From IMG/VR virus record IMGVR_UViG_3300044952_001282, positions 1 through 32,036 of that record: 32,036 nucleotides of DNA, one strand, 5' to 3'. The first letter of the stretch is position 1. Every line of letters starts with the position of its first letter. This DNA is from a virus. The position numbers and the translations under genes are program-made. Positions 1,629 to 15,058 of the stretch are shown here, piece after piece. Under the pieces are notes generated by a model. It was given only the letters and a program-made list of their open reading frames with translations. It was not told the origin of the DNA and ran no database searches.

Positions 1629-2544
1629 GCCCACTTCTCAAGCCTCCACAACCCCCGTACAGCCCGCCCAGCGCCCCGTCAGGCCCCCGGCGAGGCCAGC
1701 CCCCGCCAGAACACCCGTCCCGCCTCAGGCGGCCGTACAGCCCGCCCAGGGGCCCGCCACGAGCCCCGCCGTGTCGTTCGGGCCGATCGCCCGCACGTTC
1801 GGCAAGCGGATCCTCATTCACGGACCCGGCGGCATCGGCAAGTCAACCCTCGCCGCCGCTCTCCCGGGCCCCGTCGGGTTCATCGACCTGGACAACAGCC
1901 TGGGAAGCCTGTACGCCTCCCTGGACGAGGCCGGACTCGCCGGCTCGATCATGAACGTGCAGGGTGTTAACACCTGGGCCGAACTCCGCAAGGCCCTGGC
2001 CGCCCCGGGCTGGGACCAGATCAAGACCATCGTGATTGACTCCGTCACGCTGGCCGAGGAATTCGCCGTCCGCGAGGTGCTCCGCACCGTCCCGAAGGAC
2101 GACAAAGGCTCGCTTGCCCGCCGGATCGAGGACTACGGTTACGGAAAGGGCTACCAGCACGTCTATGACGTGTTCCTAGGACTCCTGGGCGATCTGGACC
2201 GGCACTTTCAGGCCGGCCGGAACGTCTGCCTGATCGCCCACGTCTGCACGGCAGAAGTCCCGAACTCGAACGGCGTGAACTACCTCCGCTACGAGCCGCG
2301 CCTCCAGGCGCCCGGCTCGGGGAAGGGGAGCATCCGACACCGCGTGGTCGAATGGTCCGACTTCACCCTGTACATCGGCTACGACATCAGCGTGGACGAC
2401 GACGGCAAGGCCAAGCGGTCCGGATCCCGCACCCTCTGGCCCTCGGAGGCCGGAGGCTGCATGGCCAAGTCCCGCACCTGCCTGGAGCCGCTCCAGGTCA
2501 CGAAGTCGAACGGCGCCGCCGTCTGGGCCCGTTACCTGATCTGA
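1621..2544 (+). CDS. Sak4-like RecA-fold ATPase
   Basis: This 307-residue protein begins with about 50 residues rich in Pro, Ala and Arg, then a P-loop ATPase domain. Walker A is GPGGIGKST (residues 68-76) and a Walker B strand IKTIVIDS ends near residue 141. The size, the compact single domain and the place directly after a PD-(D/E)XK exonuclease match phage Sak4 single-strand annealing/recombination ATPases of the AAA_24 type. It presumably pairs or anneals DNA exposed by the upstream nuclease. The start overlaps the stop of the nuclease gene (ATGTCTGA). Palindrome copy 3 lies inside the coding sequence, where it encodes Gly-Val-Asn-Thr. The exact subfamily is inferred. Confidence 0.8.
   Translation: MSEPTSQASTTPVQPAQRPVRPPARPAPARTPVPPQAAVQPAQGPATSPAVSFGPIARTFGKRILIHGPGGIGKSTLAAALPGPVGFIDLDNSLGSLYASLDEAGLAGSIMNVQGVNTWAELRKALAAPGWDQIKTIVIDSVTLAEEFAVREVLRTVPKDDKGSLARRIEDYGYGKGYQHVYDVFLGLLGDLDRHFQAGRNVCLIAHVCTAEVPNSNGVNYLRYEPRLQAPGSGKGSIRHRVVEWSDFTLYIGYDISVDDDGKAKRSGSRTLWPSEAGGCMAKSRTCLEPLQVTKSNGAAVWARYLI
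1963..1974. promoter_or_regulatory. Dispersed palindrome copy 3, inside the Sak4-like gene
   Basis: GGTGTTAACACC within coding sequence. No promoter is needed at this place, so a structural or partition role fits better than simple operator function. Confidence 0.6.
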
Positions 2545-2580
2545 CAACAACCCGCACCCGAAACCGAAAGGACCGAGACC

Positions 2581-2763
2581 ATGGACCAGACCGACCTCGA
2601 CATCATCAAGACCAACACGAGCGACACGAAAGACGTCGCCCAGCGGATCCTGGAAGGAAACCGCGACAACTATGACGGCTGCGACGGAGCCCGCGAAGTC
2701 GTTGACCTCTGCTCCACCATCGAGCGCCTCGTCACGGAACTCGAAAAGCACCTCGCCAAGTAA
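2581..2763 (+). CDS. Small acidic hypothetical protein
   Basis: This 60-residue protein has a good ribosome-binding site (AAAGGA upstream of the ATG) and sits between the ATPase and the SSB-like gene in the same direction. The sequence is helical in character, with charged residues and a C-terminal heptad-like stretch (STIERLVTELEKHL). No known family is recognised. Its position inside the recombination cluster suggests a small accessory factor, but this is guilt by association only. Confidence 0.65.
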   Translation: MDQTDLDIIKTNTSDTKDVAQRILEGNRDNYDGCDGAREVVDLCSTIERLVTELEKHLAK

Positions 2764-2795
2764 CCCAACCCCAGACCCAAGAAAGAGATCAGACC

Positions 2796-3578
2796 ATGCA
2801 AGTCGGAAGAATCGGAGCCATCGCCACCGCGGCCCAGGTCGGAACCACCGCCAGCAACGCCCTGTACATCGAATTCACCTGGCTCATGACCGGGCCGGCA
2901 GACCAACAGGAATCGCTCACCGCCAAGTTCTTCGTCACGAAGAAGGGCGGCGAGCCGATCGAATCAAAGATCAAGCAGCTCAAGGAGGCCTTCGCCTGGA
3001 ACGGGGATGACATCTACTGGTTCGAAGACAAGTCCGCCGACGGCTCGCTCTCGGACATCCAGGTCGTCGTCGTCATCGAAGACGCCTCCTGGACGAACCG
3101 CAAGGGCGAACTGATGCCGTCCTGGGGAGTCGCATTTATCAACCCGCCGAACGGGACCGGCTACACCCCGCAGAGCGGGCGCCTCTCCCGCGACGACTTC
3201 CGCGAGCGCTTCGCCTCGAAGTTCCGCGCCGTGACGGGGCCCGTGACCAGTCCCGCGCCGGTGGCCACCGTAGCACCCGCAGCGCCCGCCGCTTCGCCGT
3301 CGGGTGTTAACACCCCGCCGGCAGCGGCCAAACCCAAGGCCAAGCCCCGCGCCGCATCGAACAGGACCCCGACCGCCCCCGTGGACTTCACCCACGACCA
3401 GGTCTGGGAGAAGATGCTCGAACAGGCCGCCATCGTCGGGCTCACCGACGAAGACCGCGACGCGAAGTGGTACGAGCTGCTCGACGCCGTGGCACCGAAC
3501 AAGACCGAGGAGAATCTCACCACCGCCGAGTGCAACGCCCTCATGGCGAAGGTGCTGGAGATCAAACTCCCGTTCTAA
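2796..3578 (+). CDS. Putative single-stranded DNA-binding protein
   Basis: This 260-residue protein has three parts. An N-terminal domain (about 1-145) is rich in predicted strands and aromatic residues. A flexible Ala/Pro/Lys linker follows (about 148-195), and then a helical C-terminal region ending in Lys-Leu-Pro-Phe. Phage ssDNA-binding proteins placed after Sak4-type genes commonly have this plan, with a short terminal tail ending in Pro-Phe that recruits partners. No family can be named firmly from sequence alone, so the call rests on architecture and neighbours. Palindrome copy 4 falls in the linker. Confidence 0.5.
   Translation: MQVGRIGAIATAAQVGTTASNALYIEFTWLMTGPADQQESLTAKFFVTKKGGEPIESKIKQLKEAFAWNGDDIYWFEDKSADGSLSDIQVVVVIEDASWTNRKGELMPSWGVAFINPPNGTGYTPQSGRLSRDDFRERFASKFRAVTGPVTSPAPVATVAPAAPAASPSGVNTPPAAAKPKAKPRAASNRTPTAPVDFTHDQVWEKMLEQAAIVGLTDEDRDAKWYELLDAVAPNKTEENLTTAECNALMAKVLEIKLPF
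3303..3314. promoter_or_regulatory. Dispersed palindrome copy 4, inside the SSB-like gene
   Basis: GGTGTTAACACC in the linker-coding part of the gene, again read as Gly-Val-Asn-Thr. Confidence 0.6.
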
Positions 3579-3591
3579 CCCAATAAACCGC

Positions 3592-3623
3592 GCCGCCGAC
3601 CGCCCACGAGGGGCGGCGGCGGC
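3592..3623 (+). other. GC-rich intergenic hairpin
   Basis: GCCGCCG plus CCGCCC (3592-3605, with one bulged A) pairs with GGGCGG plus CGGCGGC (3611-3623) around a 5-nt loop. It lies in the 57-nt gap after the SSB-like gene and just before the ribosome-binding site of the next gene. There is no T-run, so it is more likely an RNA stability or attenuation element than an intrinsic terminator. Confidence 0.6.
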
Positions 3624-3635
3624 TGGAGGACGCCA

Positions 3636-3992
3636 ATGTCCGACCCGATCAAGCCCGAGCCCGGACCGCTCCCCGAGCCCACCGTCCGCTGCCCCTGGTG
3701 CAATAGCCGCATTATGACCAACCAGGGCGAATCCTGGTGCGAAGACCGAGACTGTTTACTCGCCTGCCCAATCCGCGATTTTGAGATGGACCAGCTGATC
3801 CGCGCCCTCGCCAGGGACAAACGGATCCTCGCCGGACACTCAATCGAAATCATGCCTATCCGCGGACAGTTCCCGGACGTCCACGAGTTCAAGGACCGCG
3901 TGGAGTTCAGAGGGACCGGAATCATGATCAAAGCCCCGACCGCCCAGCACGCATCGAAGCTCTGGAACAACCTCGCCAAGGACCGCCCGTGA
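3636..3992 (+). CDS. Zinc-ribbon protein, Lar (restriction alleviation)-like
   Basis: This 118-residue protein has an N-terminal zinc ribbon, CPWC at residues 19-22 and later WCEDRDC, laid out like the Lar restriction-alleviation family (CPxC, an aromatic, then a second Cys pair). Lar proteins modulate type I restriction of incoming phage DNA. The C-terminal two-thirds (about 45-118) is not part of that family's short form and is unrecognised. GGAGG precedes the ATG. The stop codon overlaps the GTG start of the next gene. The zinc site is well supported and the Lar role is tentative. Confidence 0.5.
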   Translation: MSDPIKPEPGPLPEPTVRCPWCNSRIMTNQGESWCEDRDCLLACPIRDFEMDQLIRALARDKRILAGHSIEIMPIRGQFPDVHEFKDRVEFRGTGIMIKAPTAQHASKLWNNLAKDRP

Positions 3993-4276
3993 AAGACTCC
4001 ACCCGTACCATCATCCAAAGCCTCATGACCGACGATGCCACCTTGACCGACCGCGAGCGAGACCTGCTCGCCGTCGCCGTTGCAGGCGGCGAACAGCAGC
4101 CCACCGACTCGATAATGACCCGCGCCGAGGCGGCGCAGTTGCTCCGCCGCGACGTTCACACGATCGACGCCTACGCCAGGCGCGGCATCCTCAAGCGGAT
4201 CAAGTACCCCGGCCAGACGCGAGCGCCCGGCTTCCGCGCGTCAGACGTGCGGGCCTTGATAGGGGAGGCCCCATGA
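3989..4276 (+). CDS. Small helix-turn-helix protein, excisionase-like
   Basis: This 95-residue protein starts at GTG, overlapping the previous stop by 4 nt. Its C-terminal half matches a MerR/excisionase-type winged helix: MTRAEAAQLLRRDVHTIDAY, then ARRGILKRI, a basic wing (KYPGQTRAPGFR) and SDVRALI. Proteins of this kind act as recombination directionality factors or small repressors. As the genome encodes a tyrosine integrase and no other obvious excisionase, this is the best candidate. The N-terminal 40 residues are unassigned. Confidence 0.65.
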   Translation: MKDSTRTIIQSLMTDDATLTDRERDLLAVAVAGGEQQPTDSIMTRAEAAQLLRRDVHTIDAYARRGILKRIKYPGQTRAPGFRASDVRALIGEAP

Positions 4277-4788
4277 CCCCGCTCCGCGCCTGGAGGCTAA
4301 ACTACCGCGCCGTGTTCGGCGCCTTGAGCGAAGAGACGGCCCGCGCCTGGGAAGACTTCGCCCGAGCCGCCATCAAGCCGCACCCGAGCACATCGGAATT
4401 CGACTGCGCCATGGTGAACCTCTGCGACTCCAAACACACCGAAGGCGGCAAGGCGACCGTGATCGCCTTCGTGAGCTGGATCCGCCGCAACCGGGCCAAC
4501 TCAGGCCGGCGCAATCAGGCCGAGGCCGAGCAGGCGAAAGCCTCGGCCATCCGAACAATTCGGTACGGCTCGCTCGGCCAGGTCTGGGCGGCCCTGTGCA
4601 ACCCGAAGCTCACCGACCTGGACCGCCCGAAACTCAAGCACCTGGCCGAGTCCACCAGACCCGACCTGTGCAACGCCAACGGGATGCTGGACCGTCAGGC
4701 CGAGTTCACAATCTCACTGGCGGAAATCCTCAAGGCGTCGGGCCTGGAGTTGCCCGCGTCCAACAGAAAGCGCCAGGTGGCGGCATGA
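4273..4788 (+). CDS. Hypothetical early protein
   Basis: This 171-residue protein is coupled by ATGA overlaps to both neighbours. It is largely alpha-helical and basic, with Trp-rich N-terminal helices and a central Arg/Asn/Gln-rich stretch (IRRNRANSGRRNQAEAEQA) that could contact nucleic acid. It lies between the HTH protein and the VRR-NUC nuclease, where phages often carry replication or recombination accessory genes. No family is recognised and no catalytic motif is evident. Confidence 0.6.
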   Translation: MTPLRAWRLNYRAVFGALSEETARAWEDFARAAIKPHPSTSEFDCAMVNLCDSKHTEGGKATVIAFVSWIRRNRANSGRRNQAEAEQAKASAIRTIRYGSLGQVWAALCNPKLTDLDRPKLKHLAESTRPDLCNANGMLDRQAEFTISLAEILKASGLELPASNRKRQVAA

Positions 4789-4964
4789 ACCGAACGGGCG
4801 TCAAGATCATGCAGCGCGATCTGGCTAAGATCAAACCGATCTGGAAAGCAGGCAAAACCATCCTCGCCAAGTCCATGATTCGCAAGGCCGCCGCCCAGGT
4901 CGGGGTCACGGTGAAAGGCCCGATCCACCTCGACCTGACCACGGGGGAGATCATCACGGAATGA
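4785..4964 (+). CDS. Small basic hypothetical protein
   Basis: This 59-residue basic protein starts at an ATG that overlaps the previous stop (ATGA), and its own stop overlaps the next start the same way. A longer reading of the frame from 4596 lies inside the previous gene and is not favoured. Lys/Arg-rich helices (KIKPIWKAGKTILAKSMIRK) precede a short strand-like C-terminus. It may bind nucleic acid. The family is unknown. Confidence 0.6.
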   Translation: MNRTGVKIMQRDLAKIKPIWKAGKTILAKSMIRKAAAQVGVTVKGPIHLDLTTGEIITE

Positions 4965-5392
4965 GCGACCTGTTTCCCCATGCATCCGAAGAGTTCAAGC
5001 GGCTCAACCCCAGCCTGTTCGGGCCGGCCGCCGCTCCGGTCGCCACCAAGATGGACGCCGCCGACCTGCAGGCCATCACCGACGTCTGCGACAAGGTCGA
5101 GGCTTCGCCGTTGGAGCGCACGCTCCAAGACCTATGCGAGAAAGAACTAAACCGGCGCGGCATCTGGTTCCTGCACCTGTCCCCGCGAGCCAGGGAAAAA
5201 GAGGGAGCGCCCGACCTGATGTTCACCCACCCGATCACGCACCGCTTTTGCGGTGTCGAACTCAAATCCAAAACAGGAGAGCCCTCACCCGAACAGATCA
5301 AGACGCTTGTACAGTTACACAGCAACGGAGCCATGACGGGGTTGTTCAGGAGCTTCCCCCAGTTTCTCTCGTTCCTCAACAGCGCGGAGTGA
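4961..5392 (+). CDS. VRR-NUC type nuclease
   Basis: This 143-residue protein has a C-terminal VRR-NUC fold of the PD-(D/E)XK superfamily. The signature is a Glu in the first helix (SPLERTLQDLCEKELNRRG), GAPDLMF (catalytic Asp) and GVELKSKTG (Glu-x-Lys), followed by the conserved helix EQIKTL. Stand-alone phage VRR-NUC proteins cleave branched or structured DNA and often replace RusA-type Holliday junction resolvases. It would process recombination intermediates made by the upstream nuclease and Sak4-like ATPase. The start overlaps the preceding stop by 4 nt. The N-terminal 45 residues are poorly conserved. Confidence 0.8.
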   Translation: MSDLFPHASEEFKRLNPSLFGPAAAPVATKMDAADLQAITDVCDKVEASPLERTLQDLCEKELNRRGIWFLHLSPRAREKEGAPDLMFTHPITHRFCGVELKSKTGEPSPEQIKTLVQLHSNGAMTGLFRSFPQFLSFLNSAE

Positions 5393-5393
5393 C

Positions 5394-5747
5394 ATGAAGC
5401 CATCCCGTCTTTGCCTTATGTGCGGAAGCCCTTACGTCCCGGCCAGGTCGAGCGCCTACTGTCCGAAGCTGGCTTGCCAGAAGAAAGCAGCAGCCGAGCG
5501 GACCCGCCTGTACAAGATCCGTAAAAAGATCAAAGCCAAAGCACGGCGGAAATGGAGACAGAACGAAACGGCCAGAGCGGAAACGTATCACCTTCCCCTG
5601 GCAGTGAAACTCAAAGTCATTCAAATCGAACTGATCGCCCTGGAAGTAGCGAAGCAGAAACACAGCCAGGTCCCCCTGGCCCAGGAGCAGGGGGCAGCGG
5701 ATTCGCTTGAAGCGATCCGCCGCCTCAGTGAATCAACGAACCGGTAA
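5394..5747 (+). CDS. Zinc-ribbon basic protein
   Basis: This 117-residue protein has an N-terminal zinc ribbon: Cys-x2-Cys (residues 7-10) and later YCPKLAC. A strongly basic helical region (KIRKKIKAKARRKWRQ) and a neutral helical tail follow. The layout suggests a nucleic-acid-binding protein. The ATG lies one base after the nuclease stop codon, so translation is probably coupled. The gene is followed by an AAAGGA site for the next one. Function is not recognised. Confidence 0.6.
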   Translation: MKPSRLCLMCGSPYVPARSSAYCPKLACQKKAAAERTRLYKIRKKIKAKARRKWRQNETARAETYHLPLAVKLKVIQIELIALEVAKQKHSQVPLAQEQGAADSLEAIRRLSESTNR

Positions 5748-5754
5748 AGGAACC

Positions 5755-6027
5755 ATGAACCCGCCCACCAGCAGAACTTCAATCCGACACGACGACACGG
5801 AGATCCCCGGCGCCGTGTCATGCTCAACCTGCATAGACGCAGCCACACGGCCCGGACCACTCTCCCCGTGCTGGCCGTGCATCACGACCTGGAGCCAGTC
5901 GTCGCGCCTCCCGAACTGGCGAGCCAAAGATCAAGACCTGGCCGAAAGCTGTTTCTCGGAACTGGACGCCGACCGGACGAGACACGACATGGAGCGAGAT
6001 TCCCAACACAGAAAGAGGATCGGATGA
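5755..6027 (+). CDS. Small Cys-containing hypothetical protein
   Basis: This 90-residue protein starts at the ATG at 5755, 8 nt after AAAGGA. The open frame extends upstream to 5707, but that part lies within the previous gene. Two Cys pairs, CSTC and CWPC, about 17 residues apart could bind one zinc ion. The rest is hydrophilic. The stop overlaps the next ATG (ATGA). Confidence 0.55.
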   Translation: MNPPTSRTSIRHDDTEIPGAVSCSTCIDAATRPGPLSPCWPCITTWSQSSRLPNWRAKDQDLAESCFSELDADRTRHDMERDSQHRKRIG

Positions 6028-6512
6028 GCAAGACGCCAAGGACAGATGCGGTATTTTTCGCGCTGGCTGCTGTTCACGGTTATGGGCTTGAGGACGTGCG
6101 GCGCGAAATGGAGACCCTGGAGCTTGAACTTTCCAAGGCCGAATCCGACCGCAATCACAACCGCGAGCAGTGGGAGAACGAGGAGCGGGAGAACGGACAT
6201 TTAAGGATTGAAAATCTCAAGCTCAAGGAGGAGTTGGAGAAGGTCAAAGGGGAGAGGGATGAGGCGCTCGCCGACTTTCAAGCCCTGAAAGGAAACCGAT
6301 ACGCCAAACAAGTCGCGTGTCTACAAGCAGCCCTCTCCGCCCTCCGCGCCCGTCTCTCCTACGGCGTCAAAGGCCGCATCATCGAGGCGGGCAACCTTGA
6401 ATCGACGGGCAAGCCGGGGCTGTTGATCGAGTCCACGGTTGACGAGCTGCGGGGCAAGGCGTGGATTGGGGAGTGTGTTGTGTTGAAGGAAACCGGAAAG
6501 GACGGCGTGTGA
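6024..6512 (+). CDS. Coiled-coil hypothetical protein
   Basis: This 162-residue protein begins at the ATG overlapping the preceding stop. A continuous, strongly charged coiled coil runs from about residue 25 to 95 (EMETLELELSKAESD through LKEELEKVKGERDEALADF), flanked by short globular ends. Such proteins often follow recombination genes in small phages, but no function can be assigned. The stop shares a base with the next start (TGATG). Confidence 0.6.
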   Translation: MSKTPRTDAVFFALAAVHGYGLEDVRREMETLELELSKAESDRNHNREQWENEERENGHLRIENLKLKEELEKVKGERDEALADFQALKGNRYAKQVACLQAALSALRARLSYGVKGRIIEAGNLESTGKPGLLIESTVDELRGKAWIGECVVLKETGKDGV

Positions 6513-6718
6513 TGGATCTGAACATGCTCGCAAGAATAGAGGCGCTGGTTGCCGAAAAAGATTACGTGAACGCGACCATCGAAGCCATGAAAGCGGCGAA
6601 TGAACGGCGCAGGAGAAACGGCGAGGCGGACGCTTACGGAGAGCAGTCTTTCGCCGACTGCGCGAATCAACTGAACGACGTGGCGACCGGACTGCGTACG
6701 CTTGCGGGTGTGTCATGA
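6512..6718 (+). CDS. Small helical hypothetical protein
   Basis: This 68-residue protein starts at the ATG of a TGATG junction. It is predicted all-helical with a basic centre (ANERRRRNGEAD). It is one of a chain of tiny genes each joined to the next by 1-4 nt overlaps, which points to a single translationally coupled mRNA. No family is recognised. Confidence 0.55.
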   Translation: MDLNMLARIEALVAEKDYVNATIEAMKAANERRRRNGEADAYGEQSFADCANQLNDVATGLRTLAGVS

Positions 6719-7062
6719 CCCCTACCGAACTACAGGCGCGGGTGGAGGAGTTGGAGCGGGGGATTGGGGAGGCGATTGAACGGGCTACGTGCGGTTACGG
6801 ACGTATAGATCGAGAGCCGATCCTCGCCGTCTTGCGCCCCCTGCTCGCGCCCGCCAAGGCTGCGGCCCCCAGAGTGGACTTGTTGGCCGTGGCAGCCGCC
6901 CTTGACAAGTACGAGGACCAAGCGAACCCCGCCAAGGAGCCCGCCAGGCCGCGCAGGATGCAGGGGAATCCGATGTGCGGTCACGAATACCACGCCGCCG
7001 AGCACGACGAAACGGAGCGCTGCAAAGATTATCCCGCCTGCATCCCCGTGGAGGGCGCATGA
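6715..7062 (+). CDS. Hypothetical protein with His/Cys-rich tail
   Basis: This 115-residue protein is coupled by ATGA at both ends. The N-terminal half is helical (TELQARVEELERGIGEAIER). The C-terminal third contains CGHEYHAAEHDETERCKDY, spaced like a zinc site, and a last Cys near residue 108. It may bind metal. No homologous family is recognised. Confidence 0.55.
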   Translation: MTPTELQARVEELERGIGEAIERATCGYGRIDREPILAVLRPLLAPAKAAAPRVDLLAVAAALDKYEDQANPAKEPARPRRMQGNPMCGHEYHAAEHDETERCKDYPACIPVEGA

Positions 7063-7235
7063 AAGAGACGTGCGGGAACTGCAAGCATGATGGGACCGAT
7101 GGTTCGACAAACCCGTATTGCATTGAGTGCATGAAAGGAGGCGACGGGTGGCAGTCTGATCGCGGAACCGAAGCGGACCAGGCGGCAGACGCGCACATGG
7201 CGCGGGCGAAGGCGAAGAAAGAGGATCGGGGATGA
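7059..7235 (+). CDS. Small zinc-finger-like protein
   Basis: This 58-residue protein has CGNC at residues 5-8 and CIEC near residue 21, a four-Cys knuckle typical of small phage zinc proteins. An acidic and basic tail follows. Start and stop overlap both neighbours by 4 nt. The function is unknown; binding to a host regulator or nucleic acid is possible but not shown. Confidence 0.55.
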   Translation: MKETCGNCKHDGTDGSTNPYCIECMKGGDGWQSDRGTEADQAADAHMARAKAKKEDRG

Positions 7236-7393
7236 AGCGGCTCAATCTGATAGGGCTGATCGGCGCACTTCCGTTCCTGTTCTTGTGGGCTTGCATCATG
7301 TATCGGCCGCGTATGGCCTTGCTGATGCTGGCCGAAACGGTAAGCGATTTGCGGAGTGAGTGGGTCGATGAAAAGAAAGGCAACTCAAAGTGA
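7232..7393 (+). CDS. Small single-pass membrane protein
   Basis: This 53-residue gene starts with ATG overlapping the preceding TGA and ends in TGA overlapping the next GTG. Residues 4-27 form one hydrophobic segment (LNLIGLIGALPFLFLWACIM), with the basic N-terminus MKR and a charged, soluble C-terminal tail. The coupling on both sides supports a real gene despite its size. Candidates include a superinfection-exclusion or holin-like peptide, but neither can be shown. Confidence 0.55.
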   Translation: MKRLNLIGLIGALPFLFLWACIMYRPRMALLMLAETVSDLRSEWVDEKKGNSK

Positions 7394-7602
7394 GCACCCT
7401 CCGCAAAAAGTACACCCGCCTGCGCAAGTGGGACGGCGGCTATGAGGCGTGTCTGACGGTAGGCTGTCAGACGTTTACGGTGCTGCCTGTAGCAACGCGC
7501 AAGAGTGCCGAGTGGACGCGGGATATGTTGGCATATGCGATAGGCGAAATTCTGAAGAGAGAGAAAGGAAGGGGGAGTCACCGTAACGCTTTAACCCGCT
7601 GA
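7390..7602 (+). CDS. Small hypothetical protein, last gene of early operon
   Basis: This 70-residue protein starts at GTG in a GTGA overlap. Its N-terminus STLRKKYT resembles that of the protein at 14238 (STLEKKYT), hinting at a shared short motif, although the rest differs. The body is basic with predicted strands (YEACLTVGCQTFTVLPV). A plus-strand terminator follows 50 nt after the stop, closing the operon. The family is unknown. Confidence 0.5.
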   Translation: MSTLRKKYTRLRKWDGGYEACLTVGCQTFTVLPVATRKSAEWTRDMLAYAIGEILKREKGRGSHRNALTR

Positions 7603-7802
7603 AGAGTGTTTGACCATCTGGCCAAGTCTCGATTGGCCACCGCTTCCCGCTCAAGAGCCTCGGCCCGCAAGGTCGAGGCTCTTTCCTTTTTCGCCTGGCG
7701 CCGTTCGCTCGCATCCTGACCGACCTGCCAGGCCGACCACCCGATCAGCCCCGACAAGATCAACCCGATCACCCACACCGCCGCTTTGCCTGTCATGCTC
7801 AT
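7578..7802 (-). CDS. Small membrane-anchored coiled-coil protein (inner spanin-like)
   Basis: This 74-residue minus-strand frame starts at an ATG 6 nt after GGGAG (the frame could begin at 7829, where spacing is poor). It has one N-terminal membrane helix (AVWVIGLILSGLIGWSAW) followed by a charged helical region (ASERRQAKKERASTLRAEAL), the plan of an Rz-type inner spanin. It overlaps the end of the early operon by 25 nt and contains the plus-strand terminator within its frame, so it may be a chance frame. No lipoprotein partner or endolysin is adjacent. Confidence 0.4.
   Translation of the reverse strand: MSMTGKAAVWVIGLILSGLIGWSAWQVGQDASERRQAKKERASTLRAEALEREAVANRDLARWSNTLQRVKALR
7653..7691 (+). 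terminator. Intrinsic terminator of the early operon
   Basis: A perfect 10-bp stem AAGAGCCTCG / CGAGGCTCTT (7653-7662, 7674-7683) with an 11-nt loop is followed by TCC and five T. It lies 50 nt after the last early stop codon. Confidence 0.75.
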
Positions 7803-8431
7803 GGCTCGCTCCCTGGTTGTCCGGATCATCCTCCAGGCGAAGATCCCGAGTCAAGGCGGGATACAACCCATCCGCACCAGTTGGACCGCTCGCCCGAAGC
7901 GGGCTCGCATACAACCACGATGCCGCCCGCGGGCTTGCTTCGCGCGCCCACGGTCTTTCTGAACACCGGCTCACCCCCTTCGGGGGCCTCGGTCCACCCC
8001 AGGGACCGCCACGCTCCAACGGTCAAAGCACCGCGGAGCGAGTCCCCTGGGGCGGACTGGACACTTCATGTCCCCCGCTCCCCCCGAGAGGACTACGTCC
8101 AGTCCAGATCCTGAGCAAGTCCGGCCCTCGCAAGACTGCGGGCCTCCTCGCTCGATACAGACCCGAGCGACGACACCGGTTCACTCGAATACGGCCGAAC
8201 CGGCCTCGACGCTACCAACAGCCCAGAAGACTACAGGCCCGGAATGCTACAGGCGAAACCCAGGACGGCCGAGATCGGCGAACGGAAGCCTAACCGCCTC
8301 CTCGACCGAAAAACAATCCGAAGAGGACTACAGGCGAAGATTGGATCCTGAGAGGGTCCGGAGCCCGCAAGGCTTCGCTCCTCCCCTCTCGACACAGAAG
8401 CAGCCAAGATGACATTGAACCGCCAAGGCAC

Positions 8432-8608
8432 GGCGCGGGGGCCCTACCCCGCGCCTCAGACGGACGGGGGGCCCTACCCCCGTCCGAAGAGAGCCGGGTG
8501 CCCCACCCCGGCCGAAGACGAAGCGGGGGCCCTACCCCGCTTCGCCGGATCGGACCGGCGGGGGCCCTACCCCGCCTGAATCACCCTCCACGGGGGCCCC
8601 TACCCCGT
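8432..8608. repeat. Array of six hairpins sharing one loop
   Basis: Six hairpins in 177 bp are built on GGGG-GCCCTA-CCCC. Stems and coordinates: GGCGCGGGG (8432-8455), CGGACGGGGG (8461-8486), a variant GCCGGG with loop TGCCCCAC (8493-8512), CGAAGCGGGG (8519-8544), GGCGGGG (8557-8576) and ACGGGG (8590-8608, loop GCCCCTA). Each stem is perfectly matched by its complement. The loop and upper stem stay constant while the lower stems differ yet always pair, which indicates that structure is maintained. There is no T-run, so these are not ordinary terminators. Confidence 0.85.
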
Positions 8609-9237
8609 TCCGAGTGATTCCCGATCCGGAGCCGAGGCGGACACCCTCAGCCTCACTCCGGACCCGCGAGTGCCGAATACGGCCACTCCGGGACCGTCGC
8701 TCGGAATACAGACCGCGCCCCCTCGATGCTCGGACGCGCCCGCGATGCCCCTCGGCCCGCGGCGGGCCTCGGTAGGGCAGGGGAGCCTTGCTCCCCCGTA
8801 CCCCCAGCGCCAAGGAGCCTTGCTCCTCGGCACTCCAGCCTGGCAGGGGCTTACGATGCCCCCGCCAGACCACCCCTCGTATGGCGCGGCCCGAGGACGG
8901 GACCGCAAGAGCGCTCCCACCAAGAGGCAACCGGGCAATAGCCTCCCCCGCCTTGGTTTCCCCCTTAAAAATCCCTCTTCCGAGGCGACCCCCACCACAC
9001 CCGAACCCATTCAAGGGGGAAACCCATCGGAGTCCGTTCAGTCGAAGCGACTTCCGGACGGGGGAGGTCCACGGGCGCGGACCCTCAGGACTCGGGTCCC
9101 CAATGGGCGCCCGCCCGAATACGGGTTACCCCGGTTGCCGAAGAGTGGGAGCTCAAGGCCGGCTCACGCCGGACCCCCTTCCGGCGCCCCGAGGACGGGT
9201 CAACGCCCCCATAGTGGGGGCTGCCGGTCCGGAACGG

Positions 9238-9286
9238 TCGGCGGGAGTGGAGGAATGGGGGCCCCCGCCCCATTCCTACCCGCCGA
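9238..9286. other. Long two-part hairpin
   Basis: The outer stem TCGGCGGG / CCCGCCGA encloses an inner stem AGGAATGGGG / CCCCATTCCT (9251-9260, 9268-9277) with loop GCCCCCG. Together these give 18 base pairs interrupted by a small asymmetric internal loop. It belongs to the hairpin-dense region and would fold stably as RNA or single-stranded DNA. Confidence 0.75.
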
Positions 9287-9540
9287 ACGCCCAACCAGGG
9301 GAGGGGTTGCCGGGAGCGGGGGGGCGACCCCGCTCGCCGGCAAGTTGATACCCCCCCCTGGGGGCTCCGTTCCGGACGAAACCCGGCCCCACCGACCCCA
9401 ACCCCGACCCTCAACCGGCCCCCTTGGACCCCCTCCATCCATCCGGGCGCGTCTCGGTTATGCCCTCCACCCGTCAAGAGCGGCCCCTTTCAGGGAGACC
9501 GGCGACGAACCTGGCGGCCTCGCCACGGCAGTCTGAGCCC

Positions 9541-9572
9541 CTGACCCGCGGTGTTTACACCGGCGAGGGTCA
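9541..9572. promoter_or_regulatory. Palindrome copy 5 within a longer inverted repeat
   Basis: GGTGTTTACACC (9550-9561) is flanked by the inverted arms CTGACCC (9541-9547) and GGGTCAG (9566-9572). No gene starts nearby, so it is unlikely to be a simple promoter operator. Confidence 0.65.
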
Positions 9573-9654
9573 GAACGCCTCCTAGAGCCTCCCAGGGGCC
9601 TTTACGGGCATCGGTCTCTTTCGGGTATGGGGTTCACCCTTGTACAGGGTGTAC

Positions 9655-9700
9655 GTGAGGGGTTATCGGAAAGACCTGAAGGTCTTTCCTCACCCCTCAC
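9655..9700. other. Nested inverted repeat
   Basis: The outer arms GTGAGGGG (9655-9662) and CCCCTCAC (9693-9700) enclose the inner stem AAAGACCT / AGGTCTTT (9670-9677, 9680-9687). It lies between the hairpin region and the CTGTACGG repeats. Confidence 0.7.
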
Positions 9701-9703
9701 TCC

Positions 9704-9820
9704 CTGTACGGGCCTTACAGATCTGTACGGTCTGTTACTCCCTTACTCCCTTACAGACCTGTACGGTCTTACAGATCTGAACAACTTGTACAATCTGTAC
9801 GGTCTGTACGGTCCGTACGG
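9704..9820. repeat. CTGTACGG repeat cluster
   Basis: CTGTACGG occurs at 9704, 9723, 9749, 9795 and 9804, and as CCGTACGG at 9813. The last three form a 9-bp tandem array. Two near-identical 20-mers, CTTACAGA-Y-CTGTACGGTCT, start at about 9714 and 9740, and a partial third copy follows. The cluster ends about 40 bp beyond the integrase stop codon. It resembles an iteron array or protein-binding array. The irregular spacing and lack of unique spacers rule out CRISPR. Confidence 0.75.
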
Positions 9821-9858
9821 GCTTGAGAGGCCCGATTATACCGGCGGAGTGCGGTCTG

Positions 9859-11175
9859 TCAAGTTTTCAGGTTTTCCAGGAGCACGGTGCGGACCTTGCG
9901 CCAGTTCCGGGCGGTCATGCGCTGGACGAGCGCCCGCAGGTTCACCGGGGCCCGGGCCGGCTCGGCGGTGAGCCCTGGCAAGAGCGCCACCGCGGCCGAC
10001 GCGGCGGTGTCGGACGTGTGGGTGTAGTGCTGGGTCATGGCGGGGGAGGAGTGGCCCACGATCGCCTCCACGATCGAGAGCGGAGCGTGAGCCGCCCGGC
10101 AGAGCGAGACGAACGAGTGCCGGAGGGAGTGGAACCCGACGTCCACGACCGCCCGGACCCGCTTCGCGCCGGGAACCGTGGCGCGGGTGGTGGTGATCCC
10201 GCAGGCTTGGAAGTGGGCCTGGACCGGGCGGGAGACGAACGCCGGACCCCGGGCGTAGTCGCGGGCCAGATCCGGTGTGACGTGCTCCCCGTGGCGGGGG
10301 AGAGTGGCCATGACGCCAGCGAGCGCCGGATGAATCGGGATCCGCACCGGCTCAGATTTTCGCCGGGCCGTCTTGTTCGGGATCCGCCGGATGATCCCGG
10401 CGGTGAGATCGACCTCCGCCCAACGGAGCGTCGAGGCGTCGCCCAGGCGCAGCCCCGTGTACATCCCGATTGCGAGAAGCGTCCGGATCGAGCCCGCCGC
10501 GGACCCGCAGACGAGCCGGAGTTCGTCGATCGTCAGTTCCCGCCTGGAGGCGGTCTCATGCCGACGCCGCCGGATCCGCAGCCACGGGTTGAACTCGAGC
10601 TCGAGCGTCCGAAACACCAGAGCGAGGGTCCGAACGTTTTTGTTGAACGTGTTCGGAGAGATGCCGCGCGCGCCCAGCGCGACGGCATAACTCTCCGCCA
10701 TCGGGCCCGTGACATCCCGCAGCGCGAGCGCCGCCGGGTACTTCCCGGAATGCCAGGCCTCCCACTGGGCGAAGTGAGTCCGGTACTCGTTCAGGGTGCC
10801 TGGCCCGCAGTCCGGCCGAGCTGGGGACCGGGCGAAGGATTCCCAAGCAGACCCGACCTGCAGCCCGGGCGCCGCAGCCACCGCGCCGGCCCTCGAGACT
10901 GAGACCCGTGCCGCCAGCAGCGCGAGAGTATCGGCCTCATGTTCCAGGGAAAACGGCGCCATGAGCGCCGCTCGAGCGTGTTCGGCCTGCTCCGCCGACT
11001 CGCAGGGCGAGCCGTCGGGATTGGCGAGGACCTTGGAGAAGCAGCGCCGATGGCGCTTCCACCGGCAAACGAACCGGCCGGACCGGGTTTGAATCACGCT
11101 CCCGCTGACTGGTTTCATAAAACCCCGCTTTGTTGGTTCCTTCCGTTCCTTACCATTCCCATCCGATGAACTCAA
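9859..11175 (-). CDS. int: Tyrosine recombinase (phage integrase)
   Basis: This 438-residue protein would integrate and excise the phage DNA at a tRNA gene. An N-terminal basic region and a SAM-like core-binding domain (about 105-195) precede the catalytic domain. The catalytic residues are visible: Arg243 (YTGLRLGD), Lys268 (PNKTARRKSE), His349 and Arg352 (HSLRH), His375 (GHSSP) and Tyr384 (QHYTH). The gene is convergent with the early operon, beyond the hairpin-dense region. Its 5' end faces the attP site at 11240, 65 bp away, the usual arrangement for a tRNA-targeting integrase. An internal Met at residue 20 is an alternative start. Confidence 0.93.
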   Translation of the reverse strand: MSSSDGNGKERKEPTKRGFMKPVSGSVIQTRSGRFVCRWKRHRRCFSKVLANPDGSPCESAEQAEHARAALMAPFSLEHEADTLALLAARVSVSRAGAVAAAPGLQVGSAWESFARSPARPDCGPGTLNEYRTHFAQWEAWHSGKYPAALALRDVTGPMAESYAVALGARGISPNTFNKNVRTLALVFRTLELEFNPWLRIRRRRHETASRRELTIDELRLVCGSAAGSIRTLLAIGMYTGLRLGDASTLRWAEVDLTAGIIRRIPNKTARRKSEPVRIPIHPALAGVMATLPRHGEHVTPDLARDYARGPAFVSRPVQAHFQACGITTTRATVPGAKRVRAVVDVGFHSLRHSFVSLCRAAHAPLSIVEAIVGHSSPAMTQHYTHTSDTAASAAVALLPGLTAEPARAPVNLRALVQRMTARNWRKVRTVLLENLKT

Positions 11176-11201
11176 GGCCGAAAGGGGGAGCGAAAGGGGA
11201 G
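11141..11201. repeat. Left arm repeats of attP
   Basis: TTCCGTTCCTTACC (11141-11154) and the tandem AAAGGGGGAG / AAAGGGGAG (11181-11190, 11193-11201) recur in the same order and orientation on the other side of the tRNA core, 231-233 bp away. They are candidate arm-type binding sites for the integrase or its partners. The first repeat overlaps the integrase start region. Confidence 0.65.
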
Positions 11202-11239
11202 GCCTGTTTCACGGAACCGGCTGGAATTGTCGTTTATAT

Positions 11240-11286
11240 TGGGGTGCGTGACGGGATTCGAACCCGCGACATTCAGATCCACAATG
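11240..11286 (-). other. attP core: 3' half of a tRNA-His gene
   Basis: Read on the minus strand, this holds the anticodon loop TTGTGGA (anticodon GTG), the 3' anticodon arm, the T arm GCGGG-TTCGAAT-CCCGT, the acceptor strand CACGCAC and the terminal CCCA. The 5' side of the anticodon stem does not pair (TCGCA against TCTGA), so homology to the tRNA stops there and no complete tRNA is encoded. This is the pattern of an attP core that restores the 3' end of the host tRNA-His gene on integration. It lies next to the integrase gene. Confidence 0.85.
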
Positions 11287-11373
11287 CGAATTCGCGAGCC
11301 GAACCCGCGCCTGGATGACCCGGCGCGGAAGGTTTTGACCAATACAGACGGGTATAGCCCTGTTTTTGCGCCT

Positions 11374-11432
11374 TTCCGTTCCTTGCCGTCCTTTCCGGTG
11401 TTTACACCGTGAAAGGGGGAGTAAAGGGGGAG
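11374..11432. repeat. Right arm repeats of attP
   Basis: TTCCGTTCCTTGCC (11374-11387) and the tandem AAAGGGGGAG copies (11412-11421, 11423-11432) mirror the left arm as direct repeats, with one mismatch in the first element. Palindrome copy 6 sits between them, so a palindrome-binding protein could influence integration as well as terminase expression. Confidence 0.65.
11397..11408. promoter_or_regulatory. Dispersed palindrome copy 6 (GGTGTTTACACC)
   Basis: Perfect copy in the right attP arm, about 90 bp upstream of the small terminase start. Confidence 0.7.
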
Positions 11433-11498
11433 TGCCGGCCGTATCGTAACCACGCGCCGGATTGACGGAACGGGAGCGCGAGCGGTATATCCGCGCGC

Positions 11499-11957
11499 AT
11501 GAGCCACGCCCCCTCGCCAGTTCCGAGAAATTTAGACCATCTCAAGCAGTACCAGGTCAAACCCGGGCAGGTCCTGAACCCCAAAGGCATCCGAGGAAAC
11601 GGACGCGCCCTGGCCCTAGCCACCCTCGACGGGATACTTGCCACGGCCGACAACAAGCGCAAGCTGAAGAAGTCGTTCCAGGAGCGCTTCGACAAGAATC
11701 CGGCCTTGTTCTTCCTCACCTTCATCGTTCCCTTGCTCCCGAAGGAAGCGAAATTGACGCTCGAACCCGGATCCGGAGGTATGCAGTGGGCTTCACTCTT
11801 GACTACGTTCCCCACGAATCCCAAAGACGTGTCCACCACGCTAGAGGCTACCGCTTCCGAAGCGTCTGCTGCGGGCGACGCTTCGGGAAAACCCTACTCG
11901 GAGCCGCCGAGCTTATCGATTGCGCCGCGCAACGTCCCGGCGAATATGGCTGGATAG
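11499..11957 (+). CDS. Small terminase-like protein (DUF5681-like)
   Basis: This 152-residue protein lies immediately before the large terminase. The N-terminus has a KPGQVLNPKGIRGNG motif like DUF5681 proteins, then helices and FDKNPALFFLTFIVPLLPKEA, which resembles the conserved core found upstream of many large terminases. It is probably the DNA-recognition subunit that directs packaging. The final 57 codons overlap the large terminase frame by 172 nt and read as low-complexity Ser/Ala/Pro sequence, so the functional part probably ends near residue 95. No strong ribosome-binding site is visible. Confidence 0.65.
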   Translation: MSHAPSPVPRNLDHLKQYQVKPGQVLNPKGIRGNGRALALATLDGILATADNKRKLKKSFQERFDKNPALFFLTFIVPLLPKEAKLTLEPGSGGMQWASLLTTFPTNPKDVSTTLEATASEASAAGDASGKPYSEPPSLSIAPRNVPANMAG

Positions 11958-13072
11958 CGCCGCGCTACCTGACGGCCTCCCGCGGAGCCGAGGCGCTCAA
12001 GACCATCGCCGGCGACCTGGTGAAACTCAAAGGCGACTCCCCCCAGGTCGCAGACTTCAACGGGCCGAACGGTCCGGCCCGGATCTGGTTTCTCTCGGCC
12101 GATCATCCCGACTCAATTCCCTCGTTCGGTTTCCTCGGCCTGGTCCTGGACGAGGCAGCCCAGATCCCGGGAAAAGTCTGGAATCAGCAGATCCGCCCGA
12201 CCCTGATAACCGGCGGCAATATGGGATGGTCGATCCATATTTCAACTCCGAGGTCGAAGAACTGGTTTTATGACAACTGGACCCGAGGTGTAAAGAACCC
12301 GGATCCCGGAACGTCAGGCGAATACGCCTCATTCCAATACCGGTCGATCGACAACCCGTATTTCCCGAAGGAGGAATGGGAATCGGCTCGGCAAAATATG
12401 CCGGCCGACATCTTCCGTCAGGAGTACGAAGCCGACTTCCTGGACGACGGCGCCGGAGTGTTCAGCGGCGTCGATCAGATTTTAACAGCCGACACGAAAG
12501 CGCCCTCCGGGCGCATCCTTGTTGGTTTAGACCTGGCGAAACATACCGACTTCACGCGCCTGATCGCGCTCGACGCGCGATCGGGCGCTTGTGTCGATCG
12601 CGCCGGCTGGAATCAGTTGAACTGGCCTATCCAGATCGAACGAATTGTCCGCTTCGTTCGCAAGCATAAAGCCGTTCTCGTAATGGACTCGACGGGTATC
12701 GGTGACGTCGTTTATGACTCTCTCGTTTCTCAGCTCTCCGAGATCGTTCCGATTCACCTTACATCGGCGTCCAAGACTGACTTGATTCAGCGTCTTCAGG
12801 TTTCGATTGAGCAGCGCGATATTTCAATGCCGCGTGACTGGTCCGACGTCGTTGACGAGTTGAACCGCTTCGAATGGTCGATTACTGAAAAGGGAACGCT
12901 CACCTACTCCGCGCCGGACGGTTTCCACGATGACTGGGTAATTGCCCTCGCGCTGGCTTCGTATAAGCGCCGTGACTTTTCCCAGCCACCGACCAGGCCT
13001 CTCTGGGTTCCGTTCTCGGGTGTTCGTCAGTCCGGTTTTGCGGTGCCCCGTTTGGGCCGTTCGCTTCGATGA
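11786..13072 (+). CDS. terL: Terminase large subunit
   Basis: This is the packaging motor and headful or end-cutting nuclease, 428 residues from GTG at 11786. GGAGG at 11775-11779 gives correct spacing. The open frame runs back to 11462, but that part is antisense-like and overlaps the small terminase. Motifs: Walker A CGRRFGKT (29-36), Walker B LVLDEA (119-124) and coupling motif ISTP (152-155). A RuvC-like nuclease follows with Asp249 (GLDLAKHTD), Asp301 (VMDSTG) and Asp382/Asp383 (FHDDW). Both active sites look complete. The family is the Terminase_6/Gp17 type. It acts with the portal encoded at the far end of the minus-strand late operon. Confidence 0.92.
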   Translation: MGFTLDYVPHESQRRVHHARGYRFRSVCCGRRFGKTLLGAAELIDCAAQRPGEYGWIAPRYLTASRGAEALKTIAGDLVKLKGDSPQVADFNGPNGPARIWFLSADHPDSIPSFGFLGLVLDEAAQIPGKVWNQQIRPTLITGGNMGWSIHISTPRSKNWFYDNWTRGVKNPDPGTSGEYASFQYRSIDNPYFPKEEWESARQNMPADIFRQEYEADFLDDGAGVFSGVDQILTADTKAPSGRILVGLDLAKHTDFTRLIALDARSGACVDRAGWNQLNWPIQIERIVRFVRKHKAVLVMDSTGIGDVVYDSLVSQLSEIVPIHLTSASKTDLIQRLQVSIEQRDISMPRDWSDVVDELNRFEWSITEKGTLTYSAPDGFHDDWVIALALASYKRRDFSQPPTRPLWVPFSGVRQSGFAVPRLGRSLR

Positions 13073-13102
13073 CCGCGGGGGAGGGGAAGCCCCTCCCCGG
13101 TC
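13071..13102 (+). terminator. Strong hairpin at the terL stop codon
   Basis: GGGGAGGGG / CCCCTCCCC (13078-13086, 13090-13098) with loop AAG is extended by GACC / GGTC across a 3-nt bulge. It begins within the terL stop codon. There is no T-run, so it may stabilise the 3' end of the message or start the structured region that follows. Confidence 0.6.
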
Positions 13103-13649
13103 CGAGCTTCCCTGGTCCGGTCCGGACGGAAGCCGACCGGCCTCGGACCGGCGCCTGCCGGACTCTCTGAAACCTTCGAGACCGGCGCCCGGCGCCTCCA
13201 GGGCGATCTCGGCCACTCCCTCCCCCGGGCGAGGACACCTCGCCCCGACCGACCAATACCCCGCCGATCGAGACTGCTCCCTCTTCGCACTCGGCCTTTC
13301 GGGCGAGTCGCGCGCGTCAGGGCCCGCGCTGCTCCGCGCCCGAGGCCTCATCGCTCATCCGTCACAGACTCTCCCGGCCCCGCTTCCTTCCGCGGACCGT
13401 TGCCGGAATCCAATCGCGGCCGTCGCGGGCCTCTCAGGTTCGGTCCCGCTTGGGGCCGCGATCGGATGCCGGCGCCGGACCGCCCAGCTTCCGGTCCCTC
13501 GGATCCAGAGTTCAGCCTGTTCTCACGGACCGGCCGGTCTATCGGCCTGGAAAACCGAAACGACGGACGGCTGGTTTTCCGGTGGACCCGATTGGCGGGG
13601 GCCGTCAGGATCTTCCGACGCGGGTTCGGACATAGCCTCACCGGTCTTT

Positions 13650-13693
13650 GAGTCAAGGAACTACGGTCCGGTAGGTCCGTTCCTCCTTGACTC
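13650..13693. other. Nested hairpin in the terL downstream region
   Basis: The outer stem GAGTCAAGG / CCTTGACTC and inner stem AAC / GTT are followed by ACGG-T-CC paired with GG-T-CCGT around a GGTA loop. About 18 base pairs form over 44 nt. Confidence 0.7.
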
Positions 13694-13997
13694 ATCAGAC
13701 CGGCTCGTCTGACTCACCCGCTTGGAATTCACCATCCGGCCTGGTCCCGCCAACCCCTGAGCGGGGGTCAGACATAGGCGGGCTCGTTTCAGCGTCAAGG
13801 TAGTGCCTTCGGCCTCCACCTTGACCCCGAAACTGAATACGCCCGCCGACTCCCCCCGCTCAGGTTCGGGCCCAGCGGAAAGAAACGCCGTCCGTCTGTC
13901 GGTTTTCGGCGGCCGGCCCGTCCGGATCCGCTCGCCCAGGGCGCCGCCTTGCCGATACGCTGGCGCGATCGTCCGGCGGCTGGGGGAATTGGTTTGC

Positions 13998-14024
13998 GCC
14001 AGCGAAGCTGGCTCTGCCCTTTTT
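13998..14024 (+). terminator. Possible intrinsic terminator
   Basis: GCCAGC-GAA-GCTGGC (13998-14012) is followed by TCTGCCC and five T (14020-14024). The short stem and the gap before the T-run make this a weak candidate. It would end transcription of the structured region before the next operon. Confidence 0.45.
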
Positions 14025-14121
14025 CTTCGTTGTGGGGCGCTCTATGTTGTTTCTATGGCCCTTTGTTCTGGTTGAGGCCCGCGTGCCTTTTATCATTTTT
14101 TGAAGACGCCCCTTTCTCCTC

Positions 14122-14178
14122 AGCCGCACGGAACCGGGTGTTGTTATTCGAAACTCATACACCCGGCTCCATACGGCT
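14122..14178 (+). promoter_or_regulatory. Leader hairpin before the 14199/14238 gene
   Basis: AGCCG / CGGCT (14122-14126, 14174-14178) encloses CCGGGTGT / ACACCCGG (14134-14141, 14159-14166) with a 17-nt loop. It ends 20 bp before the first possible start codon of the operon, a place suited to control of translation or mRNA stability. Confidence 0.55.
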
Positions 14179-14237
14179 AAGGCGAAAGGTTCGAAAAAAT
14201 GAAAAAGTCACTCACCACAACAAAGGACCAGAAAAAC

Positions 14238-14594
14238 ATGAGCGCCTCCACCCTCGAAAAAAAGTACACCCCCACCACCGACACAGCAAAGGGTTCTTAC
14301 AGCGTGATCTGGAGTCGCGGGGGGCGTGATTATGTCGGGCGTGTGGGACGTGTGAATCGTTTCGAGATCGTTGAAAGCAAATACGGTTTCAGCCTCTACG
14401 ACACCAGCCGCGCCGCTGGCCAGCAGTTTGTGGACAATTACCAGTATTTCACCGATGCAACCGAGCAGTCGGTTTGGATCCTCGTTGACGAAGACGCCGA
14501 GCAGGTCCGCGAATCCAACCGCACCGCAGCAATCGCCGCCCTTGTCAATTTGGGCCTCACGTCCCGCCCCTCGTCCCTGTTTTCCGCCAACTAA
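14238..14594 (+). CDS. Hypothetical protein, first gene of the parB operon
   Basis: This 118-residue protein starts at the ATG at 14238 (AAAGGA at 14222). An in-frame ATG at 14199 with its own AAAGG would add 13 residues. The start SASTLEKKYT resembles the last early protein (STLRKKYT). The body is mixed alpha/beta with Tyr- and Arg-rich strands (SYSVIWSRGGRDYVGRVGRV). The third codon base is mostly C or G, as in neighbouring genes. No family is recognised. It opens a plus-strand operon that continues to parB. Confidence 0.6.
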   Translation: MSASTLEKKYTPTTDTAKGSYSVIWSRGGRDYVGRVGRVNRFEIVESKYGFSLYDTSRAAGQQFVDNYQYFTDATEQSVWILVDEDAEQVRESNRTAAIAALVNLGLTSRPSSLFSAN

Positions 14595-14621
14595 CCAACC
14601 ACAACCCAAGGAACCCAGACC

Positions 14622-15017
14622 ATGAACGACCAGACCACCACCACGACCGAAACCAAAAAGACCCGCAAGCCCCGCACCAAGAAAGCCACGCCGACCATGC
14701 CCGAAACGACCGCCACCCCCACCGCCGCGCCCGTGGACATCCGCACACCGGCAGCCGAGACCACCGCCACCGCCCAGGCCGAAGGATTCGAGCTTGTTCG
14801 CGGGAATACCTACCCTTGCCGCCTGGAACTGCGCCGCATGGGGGGCGAATGGGACAAGGCCGCTTATGCCTGGAGAATCCCCGCCGCCCAGGTGGAACGA
14901 GCCCGCGCCCTGGTCGCGAGCATGGGCCCGAAGGTGCCCTTTGTCGGACCTATTCAACCGCGCCGCCCCGCCATCGTGAAACCCGCCGAAGTCAACGCCG
15001 ATTCGATCCCGTTCTAA
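14622..15017 (+). CDS. Small protein with SSB-type C-terminal tail
   Basis: This 131-residue protein begins with about 45 residues rich in Thr, Lys and Pro. A compact domain follows (GFELVRGNTYPCRLELRRMG, then GEWDKAAYAWRIPAAQVERA), which recalls a small motif common in plasmid and phage proteins (TYPVKxxLKxxGGxWDxxxKAW). The C-terminus Asp-Ser-Ile-Pro-Phe closely matches the Asp-Ile-Pro-Phe tip through which bacterial SSB recruits partners. It may bind single-stranded DNA or compete for SSB partners. That role is inferred. Confidence 0.6.
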   Translation: MNDQTTTTTETKKTRKPRTKKATPTMPETTATPTAAPVDIRTPAAETTATAQAEGFELVRGNTYPCRLELRRMGGEWDKAAYAWRIPAAQVERARALVASMGPKVPFVGPIQPRRPAIVKPAEVNADSIPF

Positions 15018-15028
15018 ACCCGCAACAA

Positions 15029-15058
15029 GGGGCGAGGTCGCACCACGCGACCCGCCCC
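15029..15058 (+). promoter_or_regulatory. Hairpin just before a ribosome-binding site
   Basis: GGGGCG-A-GGTCGC pairs with GCGACC-CGCCCC (15047-15058) around the loop ACCAC. It ends 2 bp before GGAGAA, the ribosome-binding site of the 15073 gene, so it could tune translation. It resembles the hairpin before the 3636 gene in position. Confidence 0.6.

Follow-up and report, generated by a model that had tools for sequence, protein, structure and literature searches.

The noncoding stretch and its genomic setting

The DNA analysed here, an IMG/VR virus record of 32,036 bases (the window), encodes an integrase, a terminase large subunit (TerL), Mu-type portal and protease-like proteins, a ParB-like protein and early DNA-metabolism genes. 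A stretch of ~2 kb (7830-9830) without recognisable genes lies between the integrase gene and an open reading frame (ORF) of 83 residues, both on the minus strand (Table 1). Pfam searches gave no match for this small ORF, or for a long plus-strand ORF (7610-8293) that overlaps the predicted transcript described below. Binned fold z-scores, calculated against shuffled sequences, reveal excess structure from ~7.9 to 9.4 kb and again from 9.6 to 9.84 kb; the integrase bins have no such excess, and most sampled coding bins show a modest excess only.

Table 1. Features of the window that bear on the structured stretch (RNA letters refer to the minus-strand reading)
Feature	Start	End	Strand	Description
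Small ORF	7578	7829	-	83 aa; directly downstream of the predicted RNA
Terminator-like hairpin	7653	7683	+	T-rich tail; separates the rightward left-hand genes from the structured region
Putative large noncoding transcript or leader	7830	9828	-	From structure z-scores and promoter; no Rfam match
Structured repeat, copy A	8107	8161	-	76% identical direct repeat D3; paralogue of 8344-8398
Structured repeat, copy B	8344	8398	-	Paralogue of copy A, direct repeat D3
Array domain	8420	8640	-	Six hairpins inside helices CCGCC/GGCGG and GGC/GCC; MFE fold and centroid
Hairpin 1	8432	8455	-	9-bp stem GGCGCGGGG/CCCCGCGCC, loop UAGGGC
Hairpin 2	8461	8486	-	10-bp stem CGGACGGGGG/CCCCCGUCCG, loop UAGGGC
Hairpin 3 (variant)	8492	8513	-	Stem GGCCGGG/CCCGGCU, loop region GUGGGGCA
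Hairpin 4	8517	8546	-	12-bp stem including one G.U, loop UAGGGC
Outer helix	8546	8629	-	9 bp, CCGGAUCGG/CCGAUCCGG (DNA: CCGGATCGG/CCGATCCGG); encloses hairpins 5 and 6
Hairpin 5	8557	8576	-	7-bp stem GGCGGGG/CCCCGCC, loop UAGGGC
Hairpin 6 (variant)	8578	8620	-	ACGGGG/CCCCGU, 7-nt loop UAGGGGC
Conserved core	8936	9070	-	P1 (CCUCCCCCG/CGGGGGAGG) around a variable arm, P2 (GGUUUCCCCCUUGAA/UUUAAGGGGGAAACC), 3' motif AAGGGGGAAACCAAGGCGGGGGA
Short repeats	9703	9820	.	With CTGTACGG/CCGTACAG; 5' end of the putative transcript; strand unassigned
Sigma-70 promoter	9835	9862	-	TTGACA-N16-TATAAT, 12/12 match; overlaps the integrase stop codon
Tyrosine integrase	9859	11175	-	PF00589, E 2.8e-14; phrog_1, 1.5e-38
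Terminase large subunit (terL)	11462	13072	+	PF03237, phrog_2

Within this stretch the two copies of direct repeat D3 differ in stem sequence and, as judged by sequence, keep their pairing. The bin holding the short repeats at 9703-9820 has a z-score of about -8 on both strands; a comparable CTGCA-rich repeat is present near the 5' end of the homologous region L085 (2040-2098). A 12-bp palindrome, GGTGTWWACACC, occurs eight times in the window (0.01 expected), at 128, 524, 1963, 3303, 9550, 11397, 16393 and 18499, with one copy 14 bp before the ParB-like gene (16418-18136) and the copy at 9550 falling within the putative RNA; it is a candidate ParB-type or dispersed repressor site. Sequence resembling a tRNA 3' end (GACGGGATTCGAACCCGCGAC) near the integrase gene, at 11243-11330, is probably the attP core. 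ARAGORN found no complete tRNA in the window and the array is not beside a tRNA array; tRNA, tmRNA and Rfam searches of the window gave nothing credible, the Rfam matches to MIR2933, MIR4380, narK and Afu_190 in the window and its homologues being judged to be chance.

The six-hairpin array

Four exact copies of GGGGGCCCTACCCC (at 8437, 8467, 8525 and 8560) and two variant copies, GGGTGCCCCACCCC at 8496 and GGGGCCCCTACCCC at 8593, lie between 8437 and 8606. Six matches with at most two mismatches compare with 0.67 expected, and none of 100 shuffles reached six. When flanks were swapped between copies, the own 3' flank was the best partner of the 5' flank in five of the six; the numbers of contiguous pairs formed with the own flank are 2, 3, 8, 4, 6 and 5 for hairpins 6 to 1, respectively, and foreign 3' flanks mostly give 0-2, with a maximum of 4. 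Hairpins 6 (2 pairs) and 5 (3 pairs) are each equalled or exceeded by one foreign flank, the other four being clear. When the entire 2-kb region was shuffled and scored by a simple 4-bp criterion, this number of same-loop hairpins was reached in 4 of 300 shuffles.

The original prediction of six hairpins, with one loop and changing but matched stems, is confirmed by these counts and by the flank-swap pairing. Two copies are imperfect: hairpin 3 has lost the top closing pair (T opposite C on the plus strand), its lower stem still pairing, and hairpin 6 has a 7-nt loop and a lower stem of 2 bp, around which an additional 7-bp helix, GAATCAC/GTGATTC (RNA: GAAUCAC/GUGAUUC), is formed. The array stems are almost purely Watson-Crick. 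No T-runs follow the array hairpins, and a terminator scan found no terminator in the array, bearing out the earlier view that this is not a terminator series. Rfam gave no credible match.

Folding of the 221-nt array domain as the minus strand gave -152.1 kcal/mol (z -4.56), with none of 200 shuffles as good. The array forms one closed, branched domain, but is only one domain of a much longer, ~2-kb, folded stretch.

Strand and putative transcript

The probable identification of the RNA with the minus strand, such that the loop reads UAGGGC rather than the plus-strand GCCCTA of the original prediction, is based on the position of the promoter, the plus-strand terminator upstream of the region, and the counts of G.U and A.C pairs. 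The promoter (9862-9835) is the sole 12/12 site within positions 1-20000 of the window; the homologous regions have no comparable promoter, the best match being 9/12. Across all stable stems, the minus-strand reading gives 14 G.U and 4 A.C pairs, a weak excess that is not corrected for base composition, and the array hairpins from four phages have 6 G.U and 0 A.C pairs when taken in the orientation antisense to terL. The fold of the 240-nt bin over the array has a more extreme z-score on the plus strand (-9.0) than on the minus strand (-4.3). The ~2-kb folded stretch is probably a large RNA.

The complementary sequence GCCCUA occurs once in the minus-strand region, at about 8773-8778. A kissing-loop model employing this site was not adopted; the related prophages L184 and L186 have no counterpart.

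A conserved core and its homologues

A terminase search led to a bacterial metagenome-assembled genome (loci L015 and L016; 48-52% identity) and then to 387 genomes of its phylum. Searching these with the noncoding DNA identified L085 and L086, both of which share a core composed of P1, variable arm(s), P2 and AAGGGGGAAACCAAGGCGGGGGA. A search with the core motif gave 11 matches, compared with one for the reversed control; its true copies extend the set of L085, L115 and L117 by L135, L136 and L138, such that the core homologues are these six and L086. Four further pattern matches (L127, L128, L131 and L132), which look like coding or unrelated sequence, were dropped.

Because MAFFT misaligned L086 in the whole core, the P1 and P2 strands were paired by hand and concatenated. 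Over six sequences, 88.7% of the P1/P2 cells are paired and 11 pairs are changed on both sides, a count that leans on the hand choice of the helices and of the six sequences. The covariation score is 0.345, compared with 0.136 for shuffled sequences (0/500) and at most 0.143 when the partners were slid.

The settings of the copies vary. In L086 the core adjoins a divergent terL and a portal gene; the L115 copy has a Mu-type transposase and an AAA ATPase nearby, that in L138 is between ordinary chromosomal genes, and those in L135 and L117 are away from any recognised phage gene. The settings in L115, L138, L135 and L117 suggest that the core is a structured element of a mobile or dispersed kind, occurring also beyond phages, which may be separate from the RNA proposed here.

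Other repeats were observed at these loci. L085 has two further hairpin repeats (2753-2789 and 3207-3239) with many copies across genomes of the same order, which are dispersed palindromic repeats; tandem TTTCCAACCATTGGAAA hairpins with a 31-bp period lie beside the core copy in L138 (5725-5818); and L115 has a tandem duplication of the 3' core motif, at a spacing of 15 bp (2499-2534).

Arrays in related prophages

The array of L086 combines the constant loop GGGGA with differing stems, the own-partner pairs numbering 5, 7, 8, 8 and 4; these five hairpins compare with none of the kind in 300 shuffles. A weak GGGGA copy and one (6920) which folds otherwise are also present. The L086 array is located just 3' of its core, except for hairpin 6330, which is 5' of it.

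Prophages fetched by means of terminases 46-55% identical gave a third array type, with the loop AGGAUA: eight hairpins in L184 and five in L186, a second prophage in the same genome. Both arrays are just past a small gene upstream of terL, in L184 within a noncoding stretch of about 3.6 kb (by inspection). The core motif was not found in L184 or L186, so these are linked to the window by the array, its position and the related terminase. In the MFE fold of L184, several of the hairpins have a second, outer paired stem past an asymmetric internal loop.

Arrays of this type thus span three phage lineages, and the loop differs from one to the next (UAGGGC, GGGGA and AGGAUA). Among 2.3 Mb of fetched loci, GC-rich constant-loop arrays are present only in the window, L086 and L184/L186 (and in duplicate records), the other matches to the array scan being AT-rich, weak or coding repeats. 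Most related prophages have no array, i.e. the feature is recurrent, not universal. Since relatives have a corresponding array at this position, but built on another loop, the array would seem to represent a class of viral RNA not described before, and not an isolated repeat.

L188 presents the opposite arrangement: its hairpins, 1669 to 2819 bases upstream of terL, share the stem GCGCCGG/CCGGCGC but vary in loop (ACAA, GGA, ATTA and ACA), and are REP-like. Scans of viral contigs with the integrase, the portal and the core pattern gave no relatives, and matches there to the two-copy loop pattern were collagen-like coding repeats and one unrelated match; BLASTN of the region against phage records gave none.

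Comparison of the sister prophages L184 and L186

L184 and L186 are 83% identical over ungapped columns, and their loops are mostly kept while the stems change. Among the clean AGGAUA hairpins, some stems are retained and others are changed on both sides, at 3122 (one pair) and 3849 (two pairs); hairpins 3377 and 3631 show an apparent, alignment-dependent, symmetric shortening of both arms; hairpin 3588 is destroyed and 3252 is deleted in L186. In total there are five double changes, no tolerated single change and 11 broken cells, in sequences whose base composition disfavours A/T anyway.

The pair flips and symmetric losses fit both selection on pairing and template-switch correction, and the data do not separate these. 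For RNA genes, there is documented evidence that hairpins arise and are maintained by template switching (PMC8794818). The retention of the loops, the shared position and the outer paired stems modelled for L184 are in favour of a selected structure.

Discussion

The organisation of the array, i.e. one short loop on many different stems within one noncoding stretch, resembles that of CsrB/CsrC and RsmY/RsmZ, which titrate a protein. CsrB sequesters CsrA by means of loops in which the element CAGGA(U/A/C)G is repeated (PMC7652899), and the L184/L186 loops (CAGGAUAG) are strikingly near to that element. The L184/L186 loop AGGAUA and the L086 loop GGGGA contain GGA, whereas the window loops (UAGGGC, UAGGGGC and GUGGGGCA) do not. 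The stems here are of 6-12 bp; in selected CsrA sites, stems rarely exceed 4 bp. CsrA (PF02599) is absent from the window record (G000), from G111 and G105 (the genomes with L184/L186 and L086) and from six more, and was found only in G172, with positive controls; cmscan of the window and homologues at E values up to 1 gave no match to the CsrB/RsmZ group, GOLLD, ROOL or OLE. Membership of the CsrA sponges was rejected on the basis of the lack of CsrA, the lack of GGA in the window loop and the lack of an Rfam match. It is proposed, by analogy, that the array works like a CsrB-type platform, yet it is not filed as a member.

By size and carrier, the nearest known large phage RNAs are GOLLD and ROOL, large folded noncoding RNAs of unknown function that occur in phages and prophages; the accessible text of PMC12286853 describes no constant-loop hairpin arrays for these or for OLE, and the window region differs in lacking an Rfam match and in not being located by a tRNA array. 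OLE, like the putative RNA, is large, noncoding and elaborately folded. The lambda-type boxB is a small hairpin with a lineage-specific loop that is recognised by the phage's own N protein, and is known as a single site beside boxA rather than in an array of six to eight. No N-like protein was identified here. Mitochondrial genomes have repetitive or double-hairpin elements in intergenic DNA, as reported in the accessible text of PMC2800124; the phage arrays differ in being at one genomic position, with a loop that differs by lineage.

The reading that we prefer, with a probability of a little under one half (about 0.47), is that the six hairpins are a domain of a large phage RNA that acts as a multivalent platform binding a lineage-specific partner. 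We infer that the RNA of this temperate phage would be a minus-strand transcript initiated at 9862-9835, beyond where the integrase gene ends and leading away from terL. Its array domain would display the loop UAGGGC many times, with stem sequence being free provided that pairing holds; multiple molecules of a single factor (probably a protein) may bind the loops and so be concentrated or sequestered, with the action of CsrB/RsmZ RNAs on CsrA as the model for the proposed sequestration. Each lineage would have a loop suited to its own partner, i.e. UAGGGC here, GGGGA in L086 and AGGAUA in L184/L186. No binding partner for the array loops was found in this analysis. An unlikely, more far-reaching form of the proposal is that the array, within a new class of large phage RNA, is an evolvable multivalent decoy, in which the stems drift and each lineage keeps the loop that its partner requires, replacing it wholesale when the partner changes; in a variant of it, purine-rich loops might decoy the anti-Shine-Dalgarno sequence or a translation factor, so switching host translation in lysis.

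The original prediction took covariation within the array as evidence of selection on structure with a recognised loop. The recurrence of constant loops on paired stems in related prophages supports it, but covariation of pairing alone is insufficient, as an identical pattern results when palindromes are repaired by template switching (PMC8794818). Indeed, it may be, although we consider it rather unlikely, that the array is a DNA-level element, the hairpins of which are spread or renewed, with template switching (quasipalindrome correction) keeping the stems perfect and the loop being the mobile or templated part, by analogy with the repetitive hairpin elements of mitochondria. The nearly complete Watson-Crick pairing of the array stems, the whole pair flips and (alignment-dependent) two-arm shortenings at 3377 and 3631 between L184 and L186, the established ability of this process to make and maintain RNA hairpins (PMC8794818), and the other dispersed hairpin repeats in the same type of region in L085, are all as would be anticipated. 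Such a process, however, does not readily account for the recurrence of arrays upstream of terL in three lineages with no other GC-rich array in 2.3 Mb, or for the absence of the two-copy array pattern of the window from the 387 genomes of the terminase-related bacterial phylum; a pure mutation process leaves loop conservation and the perfect promoter unexplained.

It is distinctly improbable that the folded hairpins are recognised as DNA, at a site for packaging start, replication origin function or single-stranded recombination. A constant loop with paired arms is expected of a folded single-strand site, and the L184 and L086 arrays are upstream of terminase genes, but in the window the integrase gene intervenes and the distance of the array to terL is 2.8 kb, a packaging site would be expected to be smaller than these regions (1 to 3.6 kb), and the occurrence of G.U without A.C pairs favours one RNA-like strand. 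Less probable still is a very long structured 5' leader of the 83-residue ORF, in which the hairpins would tune expression or stability: the ORF begins right after the structured region on the same strand, but has no Pfam match and a terminator-like hairpin on its opposite strand, 2 kb is long for a leader, and the homologous loci have other neighbours. Chance or an ordinary terminator series, though GC-rich sequence folds easily, is excluded by the shuffle tests, the absence of T-runs and the recurrence in relatives.

A reading at the RNA level, for which the function is proposed from sequence, is favoured over a DNA-level one. If the array is a DNA-level element, it would be a natural case of compensatory stem changes arising without RNA selection, and a caution for covariation-based RNA discovery. 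If the region is transcribed, as in the preferred reading of a multivalent platform, it would represent an undescribed family of large phage RNAs with a built-in readout of partner specificity; since the loop varies by lineage on a constant architecture, comparison of phages would point to the partner. It would then join the very few large structured phage RNAs, i.e. GOLLD and ROOL, and give a tractable binding module.
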